NCBI GenBank assembly: GCA_028708805.1
Contig: JAQVYC010000006.1
Location: forward strand, 1 to 44,276
Direction: 5' to 3'
Source of the DNA: Clostridia bacterium
Lineage (GTDB): Bacteria; Bacillota; Clostridia; Christensenellales; UBA1242
Length of the DNA stretch: 44,276 nucleotides
Position numbers and translations under genes: made by a program. Below the pieces are notes generated by a model, which made no database searches, had not been told where the DNA came from, and saw nothing but the letters and a program-made list of their open reading frames with translations. Shown piece after piece: positions 12,529 through 37,740 of this stretch (its first letter is position 1; each line of letters opens with the position of its first letter).

Positions 12529-13800
12529 CTATTTCGCAAAAATTTCACAAATTTTGTTTTTCAACTTATCAATATTTATATTTTTTTTTGCGGATATAAA
12601 AATTTCATTTTCTAAGATTTTATGTTTATTAAAATCATCACTTAAAACTTTATCTTTGAGAATTCCACCATCTTCAAGAGTTTCACCAACTTCATAATTC
12701 CCCTTGCTTTCCAGAACACCCTTTCCCTTTAATATGCCCCTTCTTTCTCGGAAGTCGCCTATATTAATAATTCCGTTATTATTTATTTTCTTTTCCATAA
12801 ACTTTTCTAACACATCACTTTTGTTATACACAATAATTTGTGGAATATTCTCAGCCCCAATTTCTTTTAGTGTGTTGTTTACAACTTCAATTTGCTTTTC
12901 ATAATTTTTATTTGTAGCATCTACTAAATGCAATATTAAGTCTGCTTCCAAAACTTCTTCCAGAGTTGAAGCAAAAGCGTCTATAAGTGTGTGTGGAAGT
13001 TTGCTAATAAAGCCAACAGTATCCGTTAAAATTATTTGCAATTCGGAGCTAAGCCAAATACTTCTGCTCGTTGTGTCTAGTGTTGCAAAAAGCTTGTCAT
13101 CTGCGTAAACTCCTGCTTTTGAAATAACATTCAAAAGTGTACTTTTGCCAGCATTAGTATAACCAACTATTGCAATATTTTTCTTATTTCCTACTCGCCT
13201 TTGTTTGCGTTTTAGAATCCTTTGCTCTTTAACTTTTGCAAGCTCTTTTTTTAATTTGATAATTTTATTTTCAATAACCCTGCGATCTAATTCTATTTTT
13301 GTTTCTCCCGGACCTCTCATTCCAACACCGCCCGCACCAAACCTGCCACTTGTGCCTATAAGGCTTGAAAGCCTAGGCAATGAATATTTAAGTTGTGCAA
13401 GTTCAACTTGGAGCTTGCTTTCCAAAGATGTTGCCCTTAATGCAAATATATCTAAAATTAATCCGACCCTATCCAAAACCTTAACTTCTAAGATGTCTGT
13501 TAAATTTTTAATCTGAGAACCAGAAAGCTCACAGTCAAAAACAACTACATCGGCACCGCTTTCATCAATTTGCTCTTTTAACTCTAAGACCTTTCCTGAG
13601 CCGATTAAGGTTGCAGGAGTTATTGCCCTAACCAATTGATAATCTTTACCTACAACAACCAATCCAGCAGATTCTGCCAATCTTGAAAGCTCATTCAAAG
13701 AATAAATTACATCATCTTTATTATCAAAAATCACGCCCATTAAAAAAGATTTTTCAACCTCTTGCTTTGTTTGATGTGTCTTCTCTTTATCAAATTTCAT
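12529..13800 (-). CDS. hflX: HflX ribosome-associated GTPase with an odd insertion
   Basis: A 423-aa GTPase that in other bacteria splits stalled or hibernating 70S ribosomes. The N-terminal HflX domain (about residues 20-110, DVVVFDCELSGSQIKNL) and the linker with SGRFGAGGVGMRGPGETKIE precede the G domain: G1 GYTNAGKST (about 212-220), G3 DTVGFISKLP, G4 NKSD, G5 SAKK. Between G4 and G5 there is a poorly conserved insertion of about 60 residues with repeated Gly-Ile/Val-Leu-Lys/Glu units (RRGILKGK, KGVLESKG, GGILKDK). No Shine-Dalgarno is present; a perfect consensus promoter lies so close that the mRNA should begin at the start codon (see findings). The VUT-like gene follows. Confidence 0.95.
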   Translation of the reverse strand: MKFDKEKTHQTKQEVEKSFLMGVIFDNKDDVIYSLNELSRLAESAGLVVVGKDYQLVRAITPATLIGSGKVLELKEQIDESGADVVVFDCELSGSQIKNLTDILEVKVLDRVGLILDIFALRATSLESKLQVELAQLKYSLPRLSSLIGTSGRFGAGGVGMRGPGETKIELDRRVIENKIIKLKKELAKVKEQRILKRKQRRVGNKKNIAIVGYTNAGKSTLLNVISKAGVYADDKLFATLDTTSRSIWLSSELQIILTDTVGFISKLPHTLIDAFASTLEEVLEADLILHLVDATNKNYEKQIEVVNNTLKEIGAENIPQIIVYNKSDVLEKFMEKKINNNGIINIGDFRERRGILKGKGVLESKGNYEVGETLEDGGILKDKVLSDDFNKHKILENEIFISAKKNINIDKLKNKICEIFAK

Positions 13801-13807
13801 AGCTTAT

Positions 13808-13836
13808 ATTATAATACAAGCTAGAACATTTGTCAA
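13808..13836 (-). promoter_or_regulatory. Consensus promoter positioned for a leaderless hflX mRNA
   Basis: On the minus strand TTGACA (13836-13831), N17, TATAAT (13813-13808), then 7 bases and the ATG (13800). The canonical +1 falls at 13801, one base before the ATG. No SD-like purine run occurs between promoter and ATG. Confidence 0.8.
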
Positions 13837-15068: not shown

Positions 15069-17741
15069 TTAGTCGCCAAACAGCTTTCGAACCATATCAT
15101 AAGACACAATTTGTACCATTGTTCTGCTCATTGGCCCTGTTATTAAAAATGATTGACCAACACCAGCGGTAACAATAGAGTTTTGTTCTTCTTCGTTTAT
15201 TTCTCCTGACTTACGGTATAGCTCAACTAAGTCATTCATATCATTCGGAGCTAGCGAAAATATAAATGAATACTGGCTGGCATTGATAACCGCCGTTGAC
15301 TGTCTTTGAATTTCCACCGAACCAACAAAGTCTTTTATGTTCTGTGTAATAATTATTTGCATCCCAGTATACTTACGAATTCTTTTAGCCATTTGCGCCA
15401 TAAAGTCTAGGGCTATTGGATAGTTAGGGTTAATAAAAACATGGGCCTCATCAACCGCTACAATAATTTTTCGTTTTGTGTTAAATTTTAAATTGAAATC
15501 ACGGTTTTTAATAATTTCGTTATCTAAATATTTAAACACCATAAGCATTTGAGCATTAGCTATAATTTCGTTTCTATTAGCTAATAATGAACGAAAATTA
15601 AAGCACACAAAATTTTCCTTTGTGCTTATTGAGGTTGGTCCATTCCAAAGATTTGAGTTTCTTCCACCCTTAACAAACTTTTTAATATAAGTTTGAACAG
15701 TTATTAAATTTCGTCTGTGATATTCGTCTTTTTCCTTATCTAATTTTTCTGAAACAAGCATATCTAAATCGTCAAAAACTGGATAATCTTTCGGCTTTAA
15801 TTTGAAAAACAATGAATTGCTGTTTATGCCTTTTTTATGATATAATTCAACAATTAAACTATTAAGTGTTTCAAACGCATCGGGATTAATTCCTACTAAA
15901 ATCGTCTTGAAAAATTGCTCTAAAAATTGAAGATGCACAGAAAAAGTGTCGGAGGTTTCCGTTTCTTTGTTAAGTTCGCTTTCAACATCTTCAACTTCTT
16001 CTATTTCTAGAATATCATCTTTTAATGATGTGATTATGTGAAAAGGATTAAATATACCCATTTCGGAAGAACCAACATCAATAAACTTACCGTTAAGATT
16101 TTTACATAAAGTTGTATATTCATTTTCAGGGTCAAGAATGAAAATTTTAGCATTATCGGCAGCAAAATTTGCAAGTAATGTTTTTGCGGCAAAAGACTTT
16201 CCTGAACCAGATTTTCCTATAATCATCATATTACTGTTAACTCTTTCTCTATTACGAACGAAAAAGTCTACAAAAACGGGATATTCATTATACCCTATGT
16301 AAATACCGTTGTCATCTTGCAAGGCTCCTGAGATAAACGGAAAAACAGCCGCTAGTGTTGAAGTTGGAATGCCTCTTAATGTGTCTTTAACATTATCTCT
16401 CATTGAAATATTTGAACTTACAAAAGCATCAACCTGTCGCCCAAACATTTCTGAATATCTAAAACCTTCCTGTTTTAAAATTGCCCTAACTTCCTTCCTT
16501 GCAGGCTCTTCACAAGTTACAAAAGTATTGACATTATATAACTGCTGATTGTTGTTTTTTAAACCGACTAACAAATCTTTTAATGTGTCTAAGTGAGTTT
16601 TGTTTTCAATTTGCCTTGAACTTCTAGTAACCTTATAAAGCTTACTTTCCATTTCAATAATTGACTTGTCTAACAGCTTTTCGGCCTCAAATTTAGGAAT
16701 TGGCTTTATTTTTGTTACGACCTTTGTTCTGTCTAGCAAATAAAAAGGTGCACCCCACGCATTAGGTACTTGCAAAGGGTAATCTGACACAACAAAACTT
16801 CTGTATGGTTTTCCGTCTATTTGAAATCGGCTTGCTTGAAATCTTATTTTTTGAGGGATTGCCCAGTTTAAATGCTTTGACATTGGTATAACTTCAAGCT
16901 CTCTTTCATCAAACTCTTTCCCATAATTTGCCCTTAAAAACACATAAAGGTCTTTACCGTATAATTTTTCTGTATGAAGTGGTGTTGGCGAATTAGTTAA
17001 AGTTGTCATCATACCGTTTGTTGTTGTTTCTAGCATTTCACGGTCTTTATCATATACTACAATATAAAAATGGTCTTTAAATATTTTATCTTCTCTGTTA
17101 TATGCCTCCATTCTGGAAACTCTTTCTTCAAAAATTCCCGTACGCCTTTCTATTTCTTTCTGTGTTATTTGGTCTTCATACTGTAATTCCAAAAGATTAT
17201 CATATTTTTTATCTTCGTTATAAATATATTCATCTAAAATCATTGCTTTGCTAATTTTAACAATTGAAGCCATTTGGTCATTCGAAAGTCGCCTTATGGC
17301 ATTAGCAAATGTTTCAACAAGCATATTTTGTTTATATTCGTTTAACAGCCCGAATTCAATCGGAAACACTTCAATAACTTGTGCATAATATTCACCAAAG
17401 TCTATAAAACGGTCTTGATTCAAACCAACAAAGGGAATGATTTCAGTCATTGATGAATATCCCTTAATGTTTTCTTTTGAATATTTCTTTCGCTGAGCAA
17501 AAAACCTTAAAATATAACCCAAGGTATAATAAAGCCGTGTGTCATCAGCAACATGAAAATACATTGAAACAATTATAGTAACCCATGCAAATCCAATCCA
17601 GACCCCTAAATTGTTGGCAAAATTACTTGTAAATAATGAAATGGCAACCGCCGTTCCAATTAATGCCAAAATTATATCACCAAGGGTAATACCCTTGACA
17701 AACTCCATTTTTACTTTGGTTTTTCTAGGAATAACTCTCAT
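15069..17741 (-). CDS. VirB4/TraC-like type IV secretion ATPase with PrgI-like N-terminus
   Basis: An 890-aa protein. Residues about 14-65 form two hydrophobic segments resembling PrgI-type membrane modules that are fused to VirB4 in Gram-positive systems; a central VirB4 N-domain follows; then the ATPase core with Walker A GKSGSGKSF (about 508-516), ILDPENEY, Walker B IIVAVDEAHVF (about 757-767) and IIITQNIKDF (sensor region). In conjugation systems this ATPase powers secretion-channel assembly. Here no relaxase, coupling protein, VirB6/VirB8 or peptidase gene is nearby, so it is an orphan between a lipoprotein gene and divergent spoVG. An Asp/Glu/Ser-rich insert (about 585-605) interrupts the core. 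No SD; a promoter abuts the ATG (leaderless candidate). Confidence 0.88.
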   Translation of the reverse strand: MRVIPRKTKVKMEFVKGITLGDIILALIGTAVAISLFTSNFANNLGVWIGFAWVTIIVSMYFHVADDTRLYYTLGYILRFFAQRKKYSKENIKGYSSMTEIIPFVGLNQDRFIDFGEYYAQVIEVFPIEFGLLNEYKQNMLVETFANAIRRLSNDQMASIVKISKAMILDEYIYNEDKKYDNLLELQYEDQITQKEIERRTGIFEERVSRMEAYNREDKIFKDHFYIVVYDKDREMLETTTNGMMTTLTNSPTPLHTEKLYGKDLYVFLRANYGKEFDERELEVIPMSKHLNWAIPQKIRFQASRFQIDGKPYRSFVVSDYPLQVPNAWGAPFYLLDRTKVVTKIKPIPKFEAEKLLDKSIIEMESKLYKVTRSSRQIENKTHLDTLKDLLVGLKNNNQQLYNVNTFVTCEEPARKEVRAILKQEGFRYSEMFGRQVDAFVSSNISMRDNVKDTLRGIPTSTLAAVFPFISGALQDDNGIYIGYNEYPVFVDFFVRNRERVNSNMMIIGKSGSGKSFAAKTLLANFAADNAKIFILDPENEYTTLCKNLNGKFIDVGSSEMGIFNPFHIITSLKDDILEIEEVEDVESELNKETETSDTFSVHLQFLEQFFKTILVGINPDAFETLNSLIVELYHKKGINSNSLFFKLKPKDYPVFDDLDMLVSEKLDKEKDEYHRRNLITVQTYIKKFVKGGRNSNLWNGPTSISTKENFVCFNFRSLLANRNEIIANAQMLMVFKYLDNEIIKNRDFNLKFNTKRKIIVAVDEAHVFINPNYPIALDFMAQMAKRIRKYTGMQIIITQNIKDFVGSVEIQRQSTAVINASQYSFIFSLAPNDMNDLVELYRKSGEINEEEQNSIVTAGVGQSFLITGPMSRTMVQIVSYDMVRKLFGD

Positions 17742-17748
17742 AATAATT

Positions 17749-17777
17749 ATTATAGCTTAAATAATAAAAAAAATCAA
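17749..17777 (-). promoter_or_regulatory. Promoter positioned for a leaderless virB4-like mRNA
   Basis: On the minus strand TTGATT (17777-17772), N17, TATAAT (17754-17749), then 7 bases to the ATG at 17741; canonical +1 is 17742. No SD precedes this ATG or the next in-frame one (17708). Confidence 0.75.
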
Positions 17778-20744: not shown

Positions 20745-22115
20745 TTACTCAACATTTATAATAATTTGAGTTTCAACACACTCTAAATTAAAATGACTTA
20801 TATTTATAGTTATTGTTCCTTTTATGCTTTCAATAGATAAAAACAATATATTATTGTTAATAAGTCGATATTGTTTAAGCATTTGTTCATTGTTGTTTCC
20901 AATTACAAACATTGGGTCAATTTCAGTTCCGCTCGTACTCTTTAAGACAACATGAAAATGCATTGATATACTCTTGCCTTCAAACTTAGTTAAATCTAGG
21001 TTTAAAGTTTGAGTCTGTGAATTGTAATTAAAGTCTTCATTTTCACCTTGCAAGGTTATTTCATAAACATAACCTTGTTCTTGGTCGGGCTTCTTGAAAT
21101 TTTCGTTTATTACTTTTATGTTAATTATATGTAATTCTGAATTTATAAAAAAAACCAACTCACCTTCGCCCACTGTTTTGGCCGTAATAATATTTTCATA
21201 TAAACTGACAATTTCTTTTGCATCATCATTTAATAAATAATTTATATCTGTTGCGTATGACGGTTCAATTGAATGACTTAAAGTAAAACAAGAATTTATT
21301 GCCATATTAATTTCAATACTGTTTGGCAAATTGTGCATTTTATTAACTGGAACATTTAAAATTTTAAAATCTATTTTTTTTACAATTTGAATATCTTCAT
21401 AATTGTAGCTAAATGTTATGCTTGCACTACCTACTTTTTTGGTTTTTATTGTTTGCGTTTCTAAATTTAAATCTAACACACTTATATCGCTTGTTGTTGC
21501 CGTAATATGATTGTTAAAAGCATTAAGCTCACTATTATTGTTTATAAGGTTATTGTCAACCATGGCATTATAATTTAAAAAGCAAGGATATTCATCTTTT
21601 ATTGCTTCTCCATAATAACTCTCATCATTAACAAGATAAAGCAATGAAGAATTGTTCTCGTTAATTAAATTATATTGCTGATTTTTCCTATTAATTAAAT
21701 TTGTAAAAGATATTTCAAGGCTGTTTGAAAATGGGGTTGCATTGAATACTGCTCTGCTTTTTTCAAAATTCTCTGTTGTTAGTTCAAAACTAATTTTTGC
21801 ACCTTCTTTAACATTAAAATAATAAAACATTTTTGTTTTTTGTTCTGAATATCTTAAAACTTTGACATTAGAACTGCATGCAACTTTTGCATTTATAAAA
21901 GGTTGATTGTTTTTGGATTTTATTTCTAGTATATATTCTTCAAACCTATTATTGAAATTTTTTTCGCTATAAATCGGCTCATCTTCCAGAATCGAAAAAA
22001 CAATGTTTTCTTTCGGTAAAAGAGCATTTGCCTTTGGAGAACCATCTGCAAATATATAAATCAAAATACCCAGCAGTATTACTCCTAAAACTGAGCATCC
22101 TATCCACATCTTCAT
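20745..22115 (-). CDS. Membrane-anchored extracellular protein with Ig-like (Big_2) domain
   Basis: I start it at the ATG at 22115 (codon 7 of the track ORF), because a TATAAT box lies inside the preceding six codons and predicts +1 exactly at this ATG; 456 aa. Residues 3-24 (WIGCSVLGVILLGILIYIF) are a membrane anchor; the rest should be outside. Residues about 280-345 look like a bacterial Ig-like group 2 domain: NSIEINMAINSCFTL, EPSYATDINYLLND, then ENIITAKTVGEGELVFFI. The remaining beta-rich parts are unrecognised. It converges with murC (11-bp gap) and lies among cell-wall genes, so a surface role is likely. Confidence 0.7.
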   Translation of the reverse strand: MKMWIGCSVLGVILLGILIYIFADGSPKANALLPKENIVFSILEDEPIYSEKNFNNRFEEYILEIKSKNNQPFINAKVACSSNVKVLRYSEQKTKMFYYFNVKEGAKISFELTTENFEKSRAVFNATPFSNSLEISFTNLINRKNQQYNLINENNSSLLYLVNDESYYGEAIKDEYPCFLNYNAMVDNNLINNNSELNAFNNHITATTSDISVLDLNLETQTIKTKKVGSASITFSYNYEDIQIVKKIDFKILNVPVNKMHNLPNSIEINMAINSCFTLSHSIEPSYATDINYLLNDDAKEIVSLYENIITAKTVGEGELVFFINSELHIINIKVINENFKKPDQEQGYVYEITLQGENEDFNYNSQTQTLNLDLTKFEGKSISMHFHVVLKSTSGTEIDPMFVIGNNNEQMLKQYRLINNNILFLSIESIKGTITINISHFNLECVETQIIINVE

Positions 22116-22121
22116 AAAAAT

Positions 22122-22150
22122 ATTATAAAACATAACTAAAAAGCGAACAA
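22122..22150 (-). promoter_or_regulatory. Promoter positioned for a leaderless mRNA of the Ig-like protein
   Basis: On the minus strand TTGTTC (22150-22145), N17, TATAAT (22127-22122), six bases, ATG (22115). The canonical +1 is the A of that ATG. Confidence 0.65.
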
Positions 22151-25193: not shown

Positions 25194-25877
25194 TTAGCCG
25201 AATGCCAGAACTTCTTGATAAGTTTTTTCTATTAATTGCTCTTCATCTTCACTTTGAATTGAATTTTCAATATATCCCATTTTTGCTAAATATTCACGAC
25301 AACTATATGGTCTTACTTCTGTGGAAGTAAATAGTCTGTTCACATCTAAAATTCTATAAGGTCTGCCCTTGCCCAGAAAATCGCTATCATGTGTTATTAT
25401 ATCATGACCTAAAAGAGTTGCTTGAGCCATTATTATGGCGTCATGACTCGGCTCGTTTCTCTTATTGCTGAAAATTTGCTTTATTTTAACTACATTTCCA
25501 TTTTTATTGATTAGTGCATTACTACTGCAATAAATTTTTGCCAACTCATCTACTTTAACATATGAAAGTAAATTTTTTAACTTTTTGATTTTTTTATTGC
25601 TAATGCTCATAGGAGTAATGCTTTCTTTATGCTTTGCAATAAATTGCATTGTTTTAAAATTGCATCTTTTGGACACTGCTTCTGCCTCGACTAATACCAA
25701 AGGTAAAACATATATTTTTATTTTATTATTTTCAATTAGAGACAACAATGTTTTTAATGACTTGTAATGCGTATAATTCCTGTCTTTCATCTTTTTTATT
25801 GATGACCTGTTGTTGTAATAAATGAGAGATAAACTTATTAATATATTTGTGTCAAGGCATACCGCAGTAGGACTCAT
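25194..25877 (-). CDS. PIN-domain protein, probable toxin
   Basis: A 227-aa protein with the PIN nuclease acidic set: LDTNILISL (Asp9), LVEAEAV, EPSHDAIIMAQA, and ITHDSDFL. PIN toxins of VapC type cut tRNA or rRNA using Mg2+ held by these residues. It is longer than a typical VapC (about 130 aa), with extra central and C-terminal helices. AAGGAGG precedes the ATG. The start lies one base beyond the stop of the 66-aa upstream gene, the tight coupling usual for toxin-antitoxin pairs. A non-toxin RNase role remains possible. Confidence 0.8.
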   Translation of the reverse strand: MSPTAVCLDTNILISLSLIYYNNRSSIKKMKDRNYTHYKSLKTLLSLIENNKIKIYVLPLVLVEAEAVSKRCNFKTMQFIAKHKESITPMSISNKKIKKLKNLLSYVKVDELAKIYCSSNALINKNGNVVKIKQIFSNKRNEPSHDAIIMAQATLLGHDIITHDSDFLGKGRPYRILDVNRLFTSTEVRPYSCREYLAKMGYIENSIQSEDEEQLIEKTYQEVLAFG

Positions 25878-25878
25878 G

Positions 25879-26079
25879 TTATTTGTCCTCCTTTATGCTT
25901 TTTATTTCAAGACCGTATTGATTGGCAATCATTTTTGCACGGTCATCCAGTCTGGCATAAAAATTAATGCGTTGAATTTTTGAAAGTGATTCAATTTTAT
26001 TATCGAAAGCCTCTTTAAAGTTTCTTATGGTTTTTAGGCATTCATTGTCATTTCTACTTTGACTTTTTAAATTATCCAT
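25879..26079 (-). CDS. Small protein, candidate antitoxin of the PIN module
   Basis: A 66-aa charged, helical protein (MDNLKSQSRNDNECLKTIRNF...) with no recognisable DNA-binding fold of the AbrB, RHH or Phd type. It is preceded by AGGGA and a near-consensus promoter, and its stop is one base before the PIN gene start. The antitoxin role is inferred only from size, order and coupling. Confidence 0.6.
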   Translation of the reverse strand: MDNLKSQSRNDNECLKTIRNFKEAFDNKIESLSKIQRINFYARLDDRAKMIANQYGLEIKSIKEDK

Positions 26080-26142: not shown

Positions 26143-26171
26143 ATAATAACAACTTTGAGTTGATTTGTCAA
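26143..26171 (-). promoter_or_regulatory. Promoter of the PIN toxin-antitoxin operon
   Basis: On the minus strand TTGACA (26171-26166), N17, TATTAT (26148-26143): the same hexamers as the pncA promoter. Expected +1 near 26136, with a leader of about 57 bases. Confidence 0.7.
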
Positions 26172-26289
26172 GTGCAGTTGTCGTTTTATGTCGATTTTAA
26201 AAATTTCTTTTTTTTGTTATATAATATTAACTATTTTTTTAAAATATTAACAACTGATAGGGGCTTTTAAAATCAAAAATGAAAACTTG

Positions 26290-26318
26290 TTGATATTTTT
26301 TGTTTAATCTGATAATAT
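26290..26318 (+). promoter_or_regulatory. Promoter positioned for a leaderless cca mRNA
   Basis: TTGATA (26290-26295), N17, TAATAT (26313-26318), six bases, ATG (26325). The canonical +1 is exactly the A of the start codon. No purine-rich SD is present. Confidence 0.75.
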
Positions 26319-26324
26319 TTAATT

Positions 26325-27584
26325 ATGAAAATCTTTATTCCTGAGAAATTAATAGAATTAGCAGATATGCTAAAAAAACAAGGTACTTTATATATTGTTG
26401 GTGGTTATGTAAGAAATGCCATATTGGGCTTTGCTGATACTGACATAGATTTAACTGCGGGAATTACTCCTGAAAAGATAGTAGAATTGTTAAAAGATAG
26501 CGAATTTGAAGTTATTGAAAAGTCTTATAAACTTGGAACTGTTACAATTAAATGTGATGACCAAATTTGGGAGTATACCACTTTTAGAAAAGACAACTAT
26601 GCTTCGGGTGGATATCACCGACCTAAAAGCGTTGATTTTATAGAAGATTTACGACAAGACGCTCAACGGCGAGATTTCACAATGAATGCAATTTATTATG
26701 ATATTTTAAAAAATGAAATAATTGATATTTATTCTGGGGTATTAGATATAAAGAATAGAATCGTTCGCTGTGTCGAAACACCATCTTATGTTTTTGCACA
26801 TGACGGATTGAGAATTTTGAGAATGATTCGGTTTGCTTGTGAACTAAATTTTAAAATTGACCACTCTACATTTATAGCCGCTAAAAAAATGGCTCATCAA
26901 ATAAACTTCATTTCAGGTTTTAGAAAATATTTAGAGCTTACCTCTATTTTAAATTCGTCCAAAAGATATTCTATTTCTAAAAAAGACGCCTATTTAACAG
27001 GGCTTAATTATTATAATGAACTTCGAATTTGGAATTCTCATTTTGTTCCAAGTAGTAAAGTGAGATTAAATATGAGCAAAAAGGTTGGCTGTGAAAATGC
27101 TTTCTACGGTTTGCTGATTGATATTATAGACACAGTAAACCCGCCTTGTGTTGAATATTTTATAAATGATTTGTTAGACCAAAAAGGCTTTCAACTTGTC
27201 CCCGACACAGTTAAATATTATAATATGGTTATATGTGGCTATTATGACGCTTTAAATAAACTTAACAATAAAAAGTATTTTTATAAATATTTCAATTATT
27301 TCAATAAAATTGGTGAAATCCTTCCGCTTAAAAGCAAAATATTATATGCGAAATATAAGTTTTTTTACGATTATATTATAAAACATAAACTGCCTATTAG
27401 TTTAAAAGAATTAAATATAAGCAAGGCCGATTTGAAGAAAAACTTGCCTGACCTTTCGCCAAAAAAATATGAAACAGTGCTTTATAATGCTTTAATAAAA
27501 GTGTTTGACGGTTTTATTAAAAATGAAAAAAATGCCATCTTAGAGGAAATTAAAAATGATGTTAGAAATGATAATAATAATTAG
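26325..27584 (+). CDS. cca: CCA tRNA nucleotidyltransferase (class II)
   Basis: A 419-aa enzyme adding or repairing the CCA end of tRNA. N-terminal catalytic domain: YIVGGYVRNAILG (about residues 22-34), DTDIDLT (metal-binding DxD), then FRKDNYASGGYHRP, RRDFTMNAIYYD (ribose/NTP selection) and the neck LRILRMIRFACEL. The C-terminal half is divergent, helical, and lacks an HD phosphohydrolase motif. A poly(A) polymerase of the same class cannot be fully excluded. The conserved N-terminus means the ATG at 26325 must be the start, yet it has no SD and its promoter ends six bases upstream. rmuC overlaps its 3' end by 29 bases. Confidence 0.93.
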   Translation: MKIFIPEKLIELADMLKKQGTLYIVGGYVRNAILGFADTDIDLTAGITPEKIVELLKDSEFEVIEKSYKLGTVTIKCDDQIWEYTTFRKDNYASGGYHRPKSVDFIEDLRQDAQRRDFTMNAIYYDILKNEIIDIYSGVLDIKNRIVRCVETPSYVFAHDGLRILRMIRFACELNFKIDHSTFIAAKKMAHQINFISGFRKYLELTSILNSSKRYSISKKDAYLTGLNYYNELRIWNSHFVPSSKVRLNMSKKVGCENAFYGLLIDIIDTVNPPCVEYFINDLLDQKGFQLVPDTVKYYNMVICGYYDALNKLNNKKYFYKYFNYFNKIGEILPLKSKILYAKYKFFYDYIIKHKLPISLKELNISKADLKKNLPDLSPKKYETVLYNALIKVFDGFIKNEKNAILEEIKNDVRNDNNN

Positions 27585-35439: not shown

Positions 35440-37740
35440 ATGATAAAAAAATCATCCGCTTTTAATAAGCATTTATTAGAATTTTTAAAATATTTTTGTT
35501 TTTTCTTATGTTTCTTCATATTAAGTAACGCAGGCATTTATGAAATGTTTTACCCCTTTGCAGTTGGTTTCTTGTTTGCTTTAATTTGGTGCAACCAAAA
35601 ACTGCAATATCTTGCCCCTTTATATATTCTGGCTTGTTTTATAAATAATTTCACAGTTTTTAATATAGTCAGTGTGATTTTTACTGTTACCCTAATATTA
35701 ATCATTTGCCTAACACACACCAAATTGAAAAAGCAAATTAAACTTATTTTGTTTTGCGTTTATTTTATATTTTCACAAAGTGCATATATCTTTATACAAA
35801 TTTATTTTTATTCGAGTGTTTTAGTTCCTATTTTAACTATTTTTCTTGGAGTTTTGTTCATGCTTTCTTGTATACAAATTTTTCAAGTTGTTTTGGTTCG
35901 CGGGCTTGTTTATAGGCTTAATGCATTAGAAATTATTAGTGCATTGGTTGTATTATGCTCTATATCTTGCGGGCTTTATACTTTTAATATTTATGGTTTT
36001 GAAGTTGTTAAGTTGTTTGCTGTTCTGGCAATTTTACTTTCATCTTACATATTTAATATAACTGGTTGCCTTTTAGTAGGAAGTGTCATTGGGCTGAGCG
36101 GGCTTATATCCTCAGGTAGTAGTGAATTGATTGCCCCCCTTGTTATTTGGGCTTTGGTTATCAGTATTTTTAAAACTAATAACCGCCTTTTACCTGTTAT
36201 AACACTTCTTAGCACTGAAATAGTTTTAGGCTATTTTGTTAACATTTATTATTCATATAATTATCTTTCTTTTTTATCTGTAACATTAGGCTGTTTAATA
36301 TTTCTTTGCGTGAATAGTTCGTATTTAAATAAAGTAGCAGACTTTTTTAATGTTAATCAGGGAAATATGGCTATGCGAAATGTTGTCAACCGAAGCCGTG
36401 AAAACCTTTGTAAGCGACTTTATGATTTAAGCGAGGTGTTTGGTGAAATGGATTATGTTTTTCGGTCTATGATAAAAGGAGGTATGTCAAAAGAGCAGGT
36501 TAAAAACCTTTTAATAACAGATGTTAGAGATAAAGTTTGTATTGATTGCTCTGAGAAAAATATGTGCCACCGAATGTGTTCTAGCGAAACAAGTGGCGTT
36601 TTTGAGTCTCTTATAGCTTCTGCATTAGAACGAGGCAAAACAACACTTTTAGATATTCCGCCATATCTTACAACCAGATGTTCAAGGGTAAATAATTTAG
36701 TAGGCGTGATAAATCAGCTTTGTTCACAATACAGGCAATATGCAGGTGTTATGAATAATATGGATGCTAGTCGTGTTCTTATTGCGGAACAACTTTTTGG
36801 AGTGTCGCAAATAATGAAGAATTTAGCAGGTGAAGTTCGCAGAAATGTTTCACTTGATTATAACAGGGAAAATGCTATCATAAACGAACTTTCTTACAAC
36901 AATATAATTTGCTCGGATGCCGTTTTATATGAACAGAATGTAGATGTTGTAAGTGCTAGTTTGGTTGTTAGAAAAGAAGATAGCACTAAACTTAAAATTC
37001 CGTTCGTGGTAAGCAAAATTTGCAAAAACAAAATGATTGTTACAAGTCAAGAACCTTCAATTAAAGCGGGTTGGAATGTTCTTAGCTTACAAACAGCACC
37101 CAAATATGATGTTATTTTTGGTACGGCAAGTTGCCCGAAAGACGGCTCTAAAATTAGTGGGGATTGTTACTCTGTTATTAGAATTGATAATGATAAATAT
37201 TTGTTAGCCCTTTGCGATGGAATGGGGAGCGGGGAAAAAGCAGAAAAGGCAAGTAGTTTAGCAATAGGGCTTGTAGAAAATTTTTATAAAGCTGGGTTTG
37301 ATAACGACATTATTTTATCTAGCATTAATAAGCTATTAAGCTTAAATAAAGAAGATGTTTTTTCAGCTTTGGATGTTTGCGTTGTTAACATAAGGCAAGG
37401 AACTTCCGATTTCATAAAAATGGGGGCACCTAATAGCTATATAAAACATTTAAATACCACCGATGTTGTAATGGGTGGGGCTTTGCCTTTGGGGATTGTT
37501 CAAGATATGCAACCTATAATTATAAAACAAGTATTATCTGCTGGTGATCTTCTTTTCTTATTTACCGATGGAATTTCAGAGAGTTTCGCAAAAGAAGAGG
37601 ACCTTTGCGATTATATAAATAATTTAACAGGACTAAATCCACAAATTTTAGCTGAACAGTTTATAAACAAAGCTATTGAATTAAATAACGGGGCTCGTGA
37701 TGATATGACTGTTATAGTTGCAAAAATATTTGATATTTAA
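35440..37740 (+). CDS. spoIIE: Stage II sporulation protein E (serine phosphatase)
   Basis: A 766-aa protein with the full SpoIIE layout: about ten N-terminal membrane helices (residues about 15-290), a central regulatory region with the Cys cluster VCIDCSEKNMCHRMC, and a C-terminal PP2C-type phosphatase (about 560-766) containing SGDCYSV, LALCDGMGSGEKAEKAS, FIKMGAPNSY, LFTDGISE and GARDDMTVIVA (metal-binding Asp residues). It dephosphorylates SpoIIAA to release sigma-F in the forespore and acts at the polar septum. AGAGG site upstream. This is the strongest sign of endospore formation in the window. Confidence 0.97.
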   Translation: MIKKSSAFNKHLLEFLKYFCFFLCFFILSNAGIYEMFYPFAVGFLFALIWCNQKLQYLAPLYILACFINNFTVFNIVSVIFTVTLILIICLTHTKLKKQIKLILFCVYFIFSQSAYIFIQIYFYSSVLVPILTIFLGVLFMLSCIQIFQVVLVRGLVYRLNALEIISALVVLCSISCGLYTFNIYGFEVVKLFAVLAILLSSYIFNITGCLLVGSVIGLSGLISSGSSELIAPLVIWALVISIFKTNNRLLPVITLLSTEIVLGYFVNIYYSYNYLSFLSVTLGCLIFLCVNSSYLNKVADFFNVNQGNMAMRNVVNRSRENLCKRLYDLSEVFGEMDYVFRSMIKGGMSKEQVKNLLITDVRDKVCIDCSEKNMCHRMCSSETSGVFESLIASALERGKTTLLDIPPYLTTRCSRVNNLVGVINQLCSQYRQYAGVMNNMDASRVLIAEQLFGVSQIMKNLAGEVRRNVSLDYNRENAIINELSYNNIICSDAVLYEQNVDVVSASLVVRKEDSTKLKIPFVVSKICKNKMIVTSQEPSIKAGWNVLSLQTAPKYDVIFGTASCPKDGSKISGDCYSVIRIDNDKYLLALCDGMGSGEKAEKASSLAIGLVENFYKAGFDNDIILSSINKLLSLNKEDVFSALDVCVVNIRQGTSDFIKMGAPNSYIKHLNTTDVVMGGALPLGIVQDMQPIIIKQVLSAGDLLFLFTDGISESFAKEEDLCDYINNLTGLNPQILAEQFINKAIELNNGARDDMTVIVAKIFDI

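Follow-up and report, generated by a model that had tools for sequence, protein, structure and literature searches.

Putative leaderless transcription of cca and of a wider gene class in a small-genome lineage of Clostridia

The cca gene of an uncultured Clostridia bacterium is very probably transcribed as a leaderless mRNA from an extended -10 promoter of the SigA type, with its 5' end at the A of the start codon or at the base just ahead of that A, and with initiation by 70S ribosomes, as part of a class of some 30 to 40 conserved genes. In the proposed mechanism, cca would be driven by a promoter of the sigma-70/SigA type whose -10 box is extended, its expression would depend on TGATAATAT upstream, and the spacing between this box and the ATG would put +1 on the A or on the preceding base. 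The mRNA would have no leader, and the 70S ribosome and the initiator tRNA would bind directly to its 5'-terminal AUG, a mode of initiation taken from the knowledge of leaderless mRNAs (review PMC9031893). With about 5% of the genes of the genome, the candidate class would be conserved in this lineage of Clostridia. It displays a defined promoter anatomy, a positional excess of these promoters, the absence of Shine-Dalgarno sequences (SD) and a conserved spacing in a host with an intact anti-SD, from which we infer the actual 5' end of the cca transcript and its initiation by 70S ribosomes. An earlier note on this DNA had proposed that cca is leaderless; the genome-wide excess and the fixed spacing before cca in diverged relatives support this proposal, leaderlessness itself being read from sequence.

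Promoter anatomy, start codon and product of cca

The analysed stretch of DNA, hereafter the window, covers 44,276 nucleotides, and its features are collected in Table 1. Direct reading of positions 26290-26327 gives TTGATA, 17 nt, TAATAT, TTAATT and ATG, exactly the arrangement described in the earlier note. The -10 core shares only 4/6 bases with TATAAT and is preceded by a TG at the extended position (TGA-TAATAT), a point that had previously been missed; with -35, -10 and TG scored jointly, the promoter reaches 18.7. No SD core match of at least 3 nt was found within the 25 nt before the ATG, in agreement with the initial description of the gene as SD-less, and an Rfam search for structured RNA before cca gave no match near threshold. 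The start codon is well fixed, since an in-frame stop (TAA at 26313) just upstream excludes an earlier start of the ORF and the close relatives align from residue 1, which bears out the conserved N-terminus invoked earlier. On the other strand, a strong divergent promoter (TTGACA-17-TGTTATTAT, window ~26143-26172, score 20.7) faces the genes at 25879-26079 and 25194-25877.

Table 1. Coordinates of cca and of the other candidate leaderless genes of the window, with their putative promoters
Feature	Position	Strand	Basis
cca -35 element TTGATA	26290..26295	+	sequence; 17 nt from -10
cca extended -10 element TGA-TAATAT	26310..26318	+	sequence; TGn extension
cca ATG and putative transcription start (+1 = A at 26325)	26325..26327	+	six bases past -10; positional excess genome-wide
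cca, CCA tRNA nucleotidyltransferase, 419 aa	26325..27584	+	PF01743 PolyA_pol, 108 bits; NF009814, 169 bits
Alternative -10 box TATAAT (TTAAAA at 17 nt), leader of ~90 nt without SD	26220..26225	+	score 17.7
hflX promoter TTGACA-17-TATAAT, 7 nt before ATG at 13800	13808..13836	-	promoter scan
hflX, second candidate leaderless gene	12529..13800	-	TIGR03156, 418 bits, above cut-off; no SD
virB4-like promoter TTGATT-17-TATAAT, 7 nt before ATG at 17741	17749..17777	-	promoter scan
virB4-like conjugation ATPase, third candidate leaderless gene	15069..17741	-	NF045975 VirB4_plasma, 556 bits, just under cut-off 590; no SD
Ig-like gene promoter TTGTTC-17-TATAAT, 6 nt before internal ATG at 22115	22122..22150	-	promoter scan
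Ig-like protein gene, fourth candidate leaderless gene, corrected start	20745..22115	-	promoter position

The class II nucleotidyltransferase head domain is present in the cca product, with a PF01743 score far above the cut-off of 23 bits. Its best NCBIfam match, the CCA tRNA nucleotidyltransferase model NF009814, falls under the curated equivalog cut-off of 290 bits; the product may have diverged from the other members or belong to the split CC/A-adding types. The nearest named records belong to a MAG labelled Christensenella sp. UBA5489 (66% identity) and to a Clostridia bacterium MAG (81% over a partial match). Another genome of the comparison, G005, displays two cca-like genes (contigs G005:C3, L080, and G005:C5) with 67% and 66% identity to the cca of the window, possibly reflecting a split of the CC- and A-adding roles or a mixture of strains.

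The three other genes thought earlier to share the arrangement of cca, hflX, the virB4-like gene and the Ig-like gene, all fit it, with the reservations that the spacing is 7 rather than 6 for the first two and that the third fits only from an internal ATG. Judged from its promoter, the Ig-like protein probably starts at 22115 and not at 22133, where the called ORF (20745-22133) begins; its name is the label of the earlier note, and a Pfam search of the protein at 1e-5 gave no match. The virB4-like ATPase has its nearest match in Mbov_0397, a family from integrative elements of mycoplasmas, with a score just below cut-off, and this match suggests a conjugative element in the window.

Positional excess of promoters before SD-less start codons

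The host assembly, in which the window makes up contig 16, comprises 925,770 bases in 43 contigs, with 92.9% completeness and 29.8% GC, and its order, Christensenellales, is placed by NCBI within Clostridia. Two of its contigs, G000:C7 and G000:C8, are of equal length (3455) and 98% identical, which may reflect two strains or an assembly duplicate. The ~0.93 Mb genome retains sporulation genes, including SpoIIE (window 35440-37740) and SpoIVA (L025:10326-11810), unusual at such a small size. The 3' end of its 16S rRNA keeps the anti-SD CCTCCTTT, judging from which SD translation is intact; on this ground, a lost anti-SD was rejected as an explanation of the leaderless class.

Genes were called by ourselves on all contigs of this MAG from coding score and start-codon type only, SD and promoter signals being left unused. 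An SD of at least 4 nt precedes 63% of the 710 usable genes and several other genes of the window have none, so that the statement that nearly all other genes carry strong SDs was too strong. The scan of -10 boxes before SD-less ATGs, proposed earlier as a check, revealed a sharp excess at 6-7 nt. Counted over the 203 SD-less ATGs whose upstream space is 30 nt or more, TATAAT with at most one mismatch occurs 26 times at spacing 6 and 6 times at spacing 7, where other positions average 3.3 (Poisson p ~1e-12), and at these two spacings it precedes 0/349 genes of the SD set. The excess is sharper with the promoter score, which combines -35, -10 and TG and whose weights were fixed before the rank of cca, and after the simpler histogram, had been seen. 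Promoters scoring at least 17 are found 25 times at spacing 6 and 7 times at spacing 7 (0.63 per position elsewhere), that is 32 observed for ~1.3 expected among the 203 genes, and before none of the 349 SD genes. In the score class of cca (at least 18.5), 26 promoters stand at spacings 6-7 for ~0.6 expected, or ~2% of false positives.

Transcription usually starts on a purine that follows a pyrimidine. A pyrimidine (T or C) directly precedes the ATG in 74% of the candidate leaderless class versus 46% of the SD genes (Fisher p 8e-5), and this base played no part in any selection of the class; a transcript beginning with the A of the ATG therefore fits. No clear excess of -10 boxes was found before GTG or TTG starts, among 32 such genes only, as expected for 5'-terminal initiation. 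The count implies a class of about 31 genes, or perhaps 35-40 when miscalled starts of the Ig-like type are allowed for, predicted to represent ~5% of the genes. Below a score of ~16 the list consists mostly of background, and its leuS and nifS entries, whose start would lie inside the known N-terminus, are likely false.

Conservation in relatives and weighing of alternatives

The comparison of cca upstream regions included 28 genes from 28 genomes, that of the host among them. A TGn-extended -10 box stands ahead of the ATG in 16 of them, at spacing 6 in eight and at spacing 7 in eight, no other spacing being represented more than twice. The TGn extension is present in all 16 putative leaderless genes, and most of the leaderless relatives also have a TTGnnn at 16-18 nt. 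Over the last 45 nt upstream, these 16 genes share a mean identity of 41%; with the spacing always at 6 or 7, the spacing is therefore kept while the sequence drifts. An SD takes the place of the box in ten of the 28 genes; two genes lack both signals and none combines them (Fisher p 5e-6), and the two modes are therefore mutually exclusive in cca. In a genome of the same genus as the host (G001), cca is already SD-led. This alternation between putatively leaderless and SD-led cca genes among close relatives makes a direct test of the effect of leaderlessness possible. Elsewhere among the relatives, the uvrC gene of G043, and probably also that of G037, begins at a listed leaderless promoter, which is a coincidence of coordinates only.

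The spread of the arrangement was gauged with the pattern TTGA-N18-20-TATAAT-N6-7-ATG, a strict search that undercounts, against the same pattern at spacing 10-11, chosen because a reversed pattern does not control for spacing; counts were transcribed by hand for the group totals. In the family of the host (36 genomes), 404 matches at spacing 6/7 were obtained versus 128 at 10/11, a 3.2-fold excess, and in the other families of the order (24 genomes) a weaker one, of 1.7-fold (181 versus 106). Neither the other orders of the class (713 versus 704 in 85 genomes) nor the phylum sample (766 versus 857 in 249 genomes) displayed an excess, a result that measures excess and leaves room for individual leaderless genes in these groups. 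The gene-based test was extended to G051, of another family of the order and with 52.5% GC, using only stretches taken regardless of promoter matches and leaving out those around matches as biased: 7 of 51 genes have the box at a spacing of exactly 6, for a background of 0.35 per position. In G232, an AT-rich genome (27.9% GC) from a different order, 5 of 101 genes have it at 6-7 for a background of 1.5 per position, without a clear peak.

These data bear on a chance origin, in which promoter-like sites would merely happen to lie beside ATGs in AT-rich intergenic DNA. The low GC content of the host and the frequency of sites reaching the score of cca (~0.28 per kb) give some room to it, but the sharp peak at 6-7 nt is absent from SD genes and the cca spacing is conserved. 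Moreover, since the peak recurs in G051, A+T richness is not its cause, and the AT-rich outgroup has no clear peak; we attribute practically no probability to chance.

Points against a leaderless cca nevertheless exist, namely the 4/6 match of its -10 core, the 12 of 28 cca genes without the arrangement and a second fair box at 26220. Transcription could proceed mainly from this distal box, giving a leader of ~90 nt translated by SD-independent 30S or scanning initiation, with the ATG-proximal box minor or silent. Its TATAAT has a TTAAAA at 17 nt and the score is appreciable, but this -35 is poor, TGn is missing and the proximal box scores higher. This reading also disregards the fixed spacing of the proximal box in 16 genomes and leaves the genome-wide peak at 6-7 nt unexplained, and we consider it quite improbable. 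A leader of 1-3 nt, produced by a -10 box in another register (e.g. the GATAAT detected at 26311-26316, at a spacing of 8) or by a +1 at -1, would be in line with the equal frequency of spacings 6 and 7 among the compared cca genes. The base at -1 is however mostly a pyrimidine, while initiation prefers a purine, and we hold such a leader to be very improbable; mRNAs with leaders of this length are in any case usually classed as leaderless.

Relation to known leaderless genes and composition of the class

The view that leaderless mRNAs are uncommon in Firmicutes holds in part. They were reported as rare in Clostridia, C. phytofermentans generally retaining an RBS ahead of such genes (PMC5171806), and make up 2-3% of transcripts in solventogenic clostridia (PMC9045289), whereas in streptococci they were mapped and reach ~9% of mRNAs (PMC6431027), and leaderless genes were predicted in 56 of 209 Firmicutes genomes, mainly Lactobacillales and Mycoplasma (PMC3160421). 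Like the host, Streptococcus pyogenes, S. agalactiae and S. pneumoniae are low-GC Firmicutes; their leaderless transcripts start at or next to the AUG, as predicted for the host, and are conserved between species (PMC6431027); unlike here, where the class is known from its sequence features, their 5' ends were mapped, and they belong to the class Bacilli. The leaderless genes of streptococci and those predicted in Christensenellales may be independent, because the phylum and class samples between them show no excess. The genes computed by Zheng et al. in 2011 also have a TAtAAT preceded by TG at a fixed distance from the start, but they were concentrated in two Firmicutes clades, neither of them clostridial, and the uncultured lineage was, as far as the text shows, uncovered by that survey (PMC3160421). 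C. phytofermentans and the solventogenic clostridia belong to the same NCBI class and have a few percent of their transcription start sites at the start codon (PMC5171806, PMC9045289), yet the leaderless genes of C. phytofermentans generally keep an RBS and another start site upstream (PMC5171806), whereas the class described here is without SDs. For Christensenellales, a literature search with many journals outside its reach turned up no report of leaderless genes. Leaderless genes as such being already known, the new part is a putative dedicated SD-less leaderless class in Clostridia, extended here to an uncultured lineage with small genomes whose mapped relatives have few. When these genomes are annotated, start codons should be chosen with a promoter model in addition to an SD model, as illustrated by the Ig-like gene.

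Among the well-scoring candidate leaderless genes looked up, 9 of 29 are involved in DNA repair or tRNA maturation versus 2 of 30 random SD genes (Fisher p 0.02), in a post hoc comparison within one genome and with categories of our own, to be taken as a lead only. They include UvrC, UvrD/PcrA, an HhH-GPD (Nth-like) endonuclease and the uracil-DNA (UDG) and methylpurine (MPG) glycosylases for repair, and CCA, TruA, MnmE and TsaD for tRNA maturation. Leaderlessness could mark in this order a set of repair and tRNA maturation genes jointly favoured under a change in the initiation factors or in the state of the ribosomes; the set would form a translational regulon that has no regulator protein, a reading which we regard as rather unlikely. 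Two other members of the list have unusual affinities. The 464-aa protein encoded at L035:7240-8631 (G000:C34) has a thymidylate synthase core of the methanogen type (TIGR03283, at cut-off), with weak matches to dihydropteroate synthase-like and MtrA-like parts. The PurA/PurZ-like protein encoded at L017:12799-14085 (G000:C15) has its best match with PurZ (179.7 bits, below the cut-off of 300).
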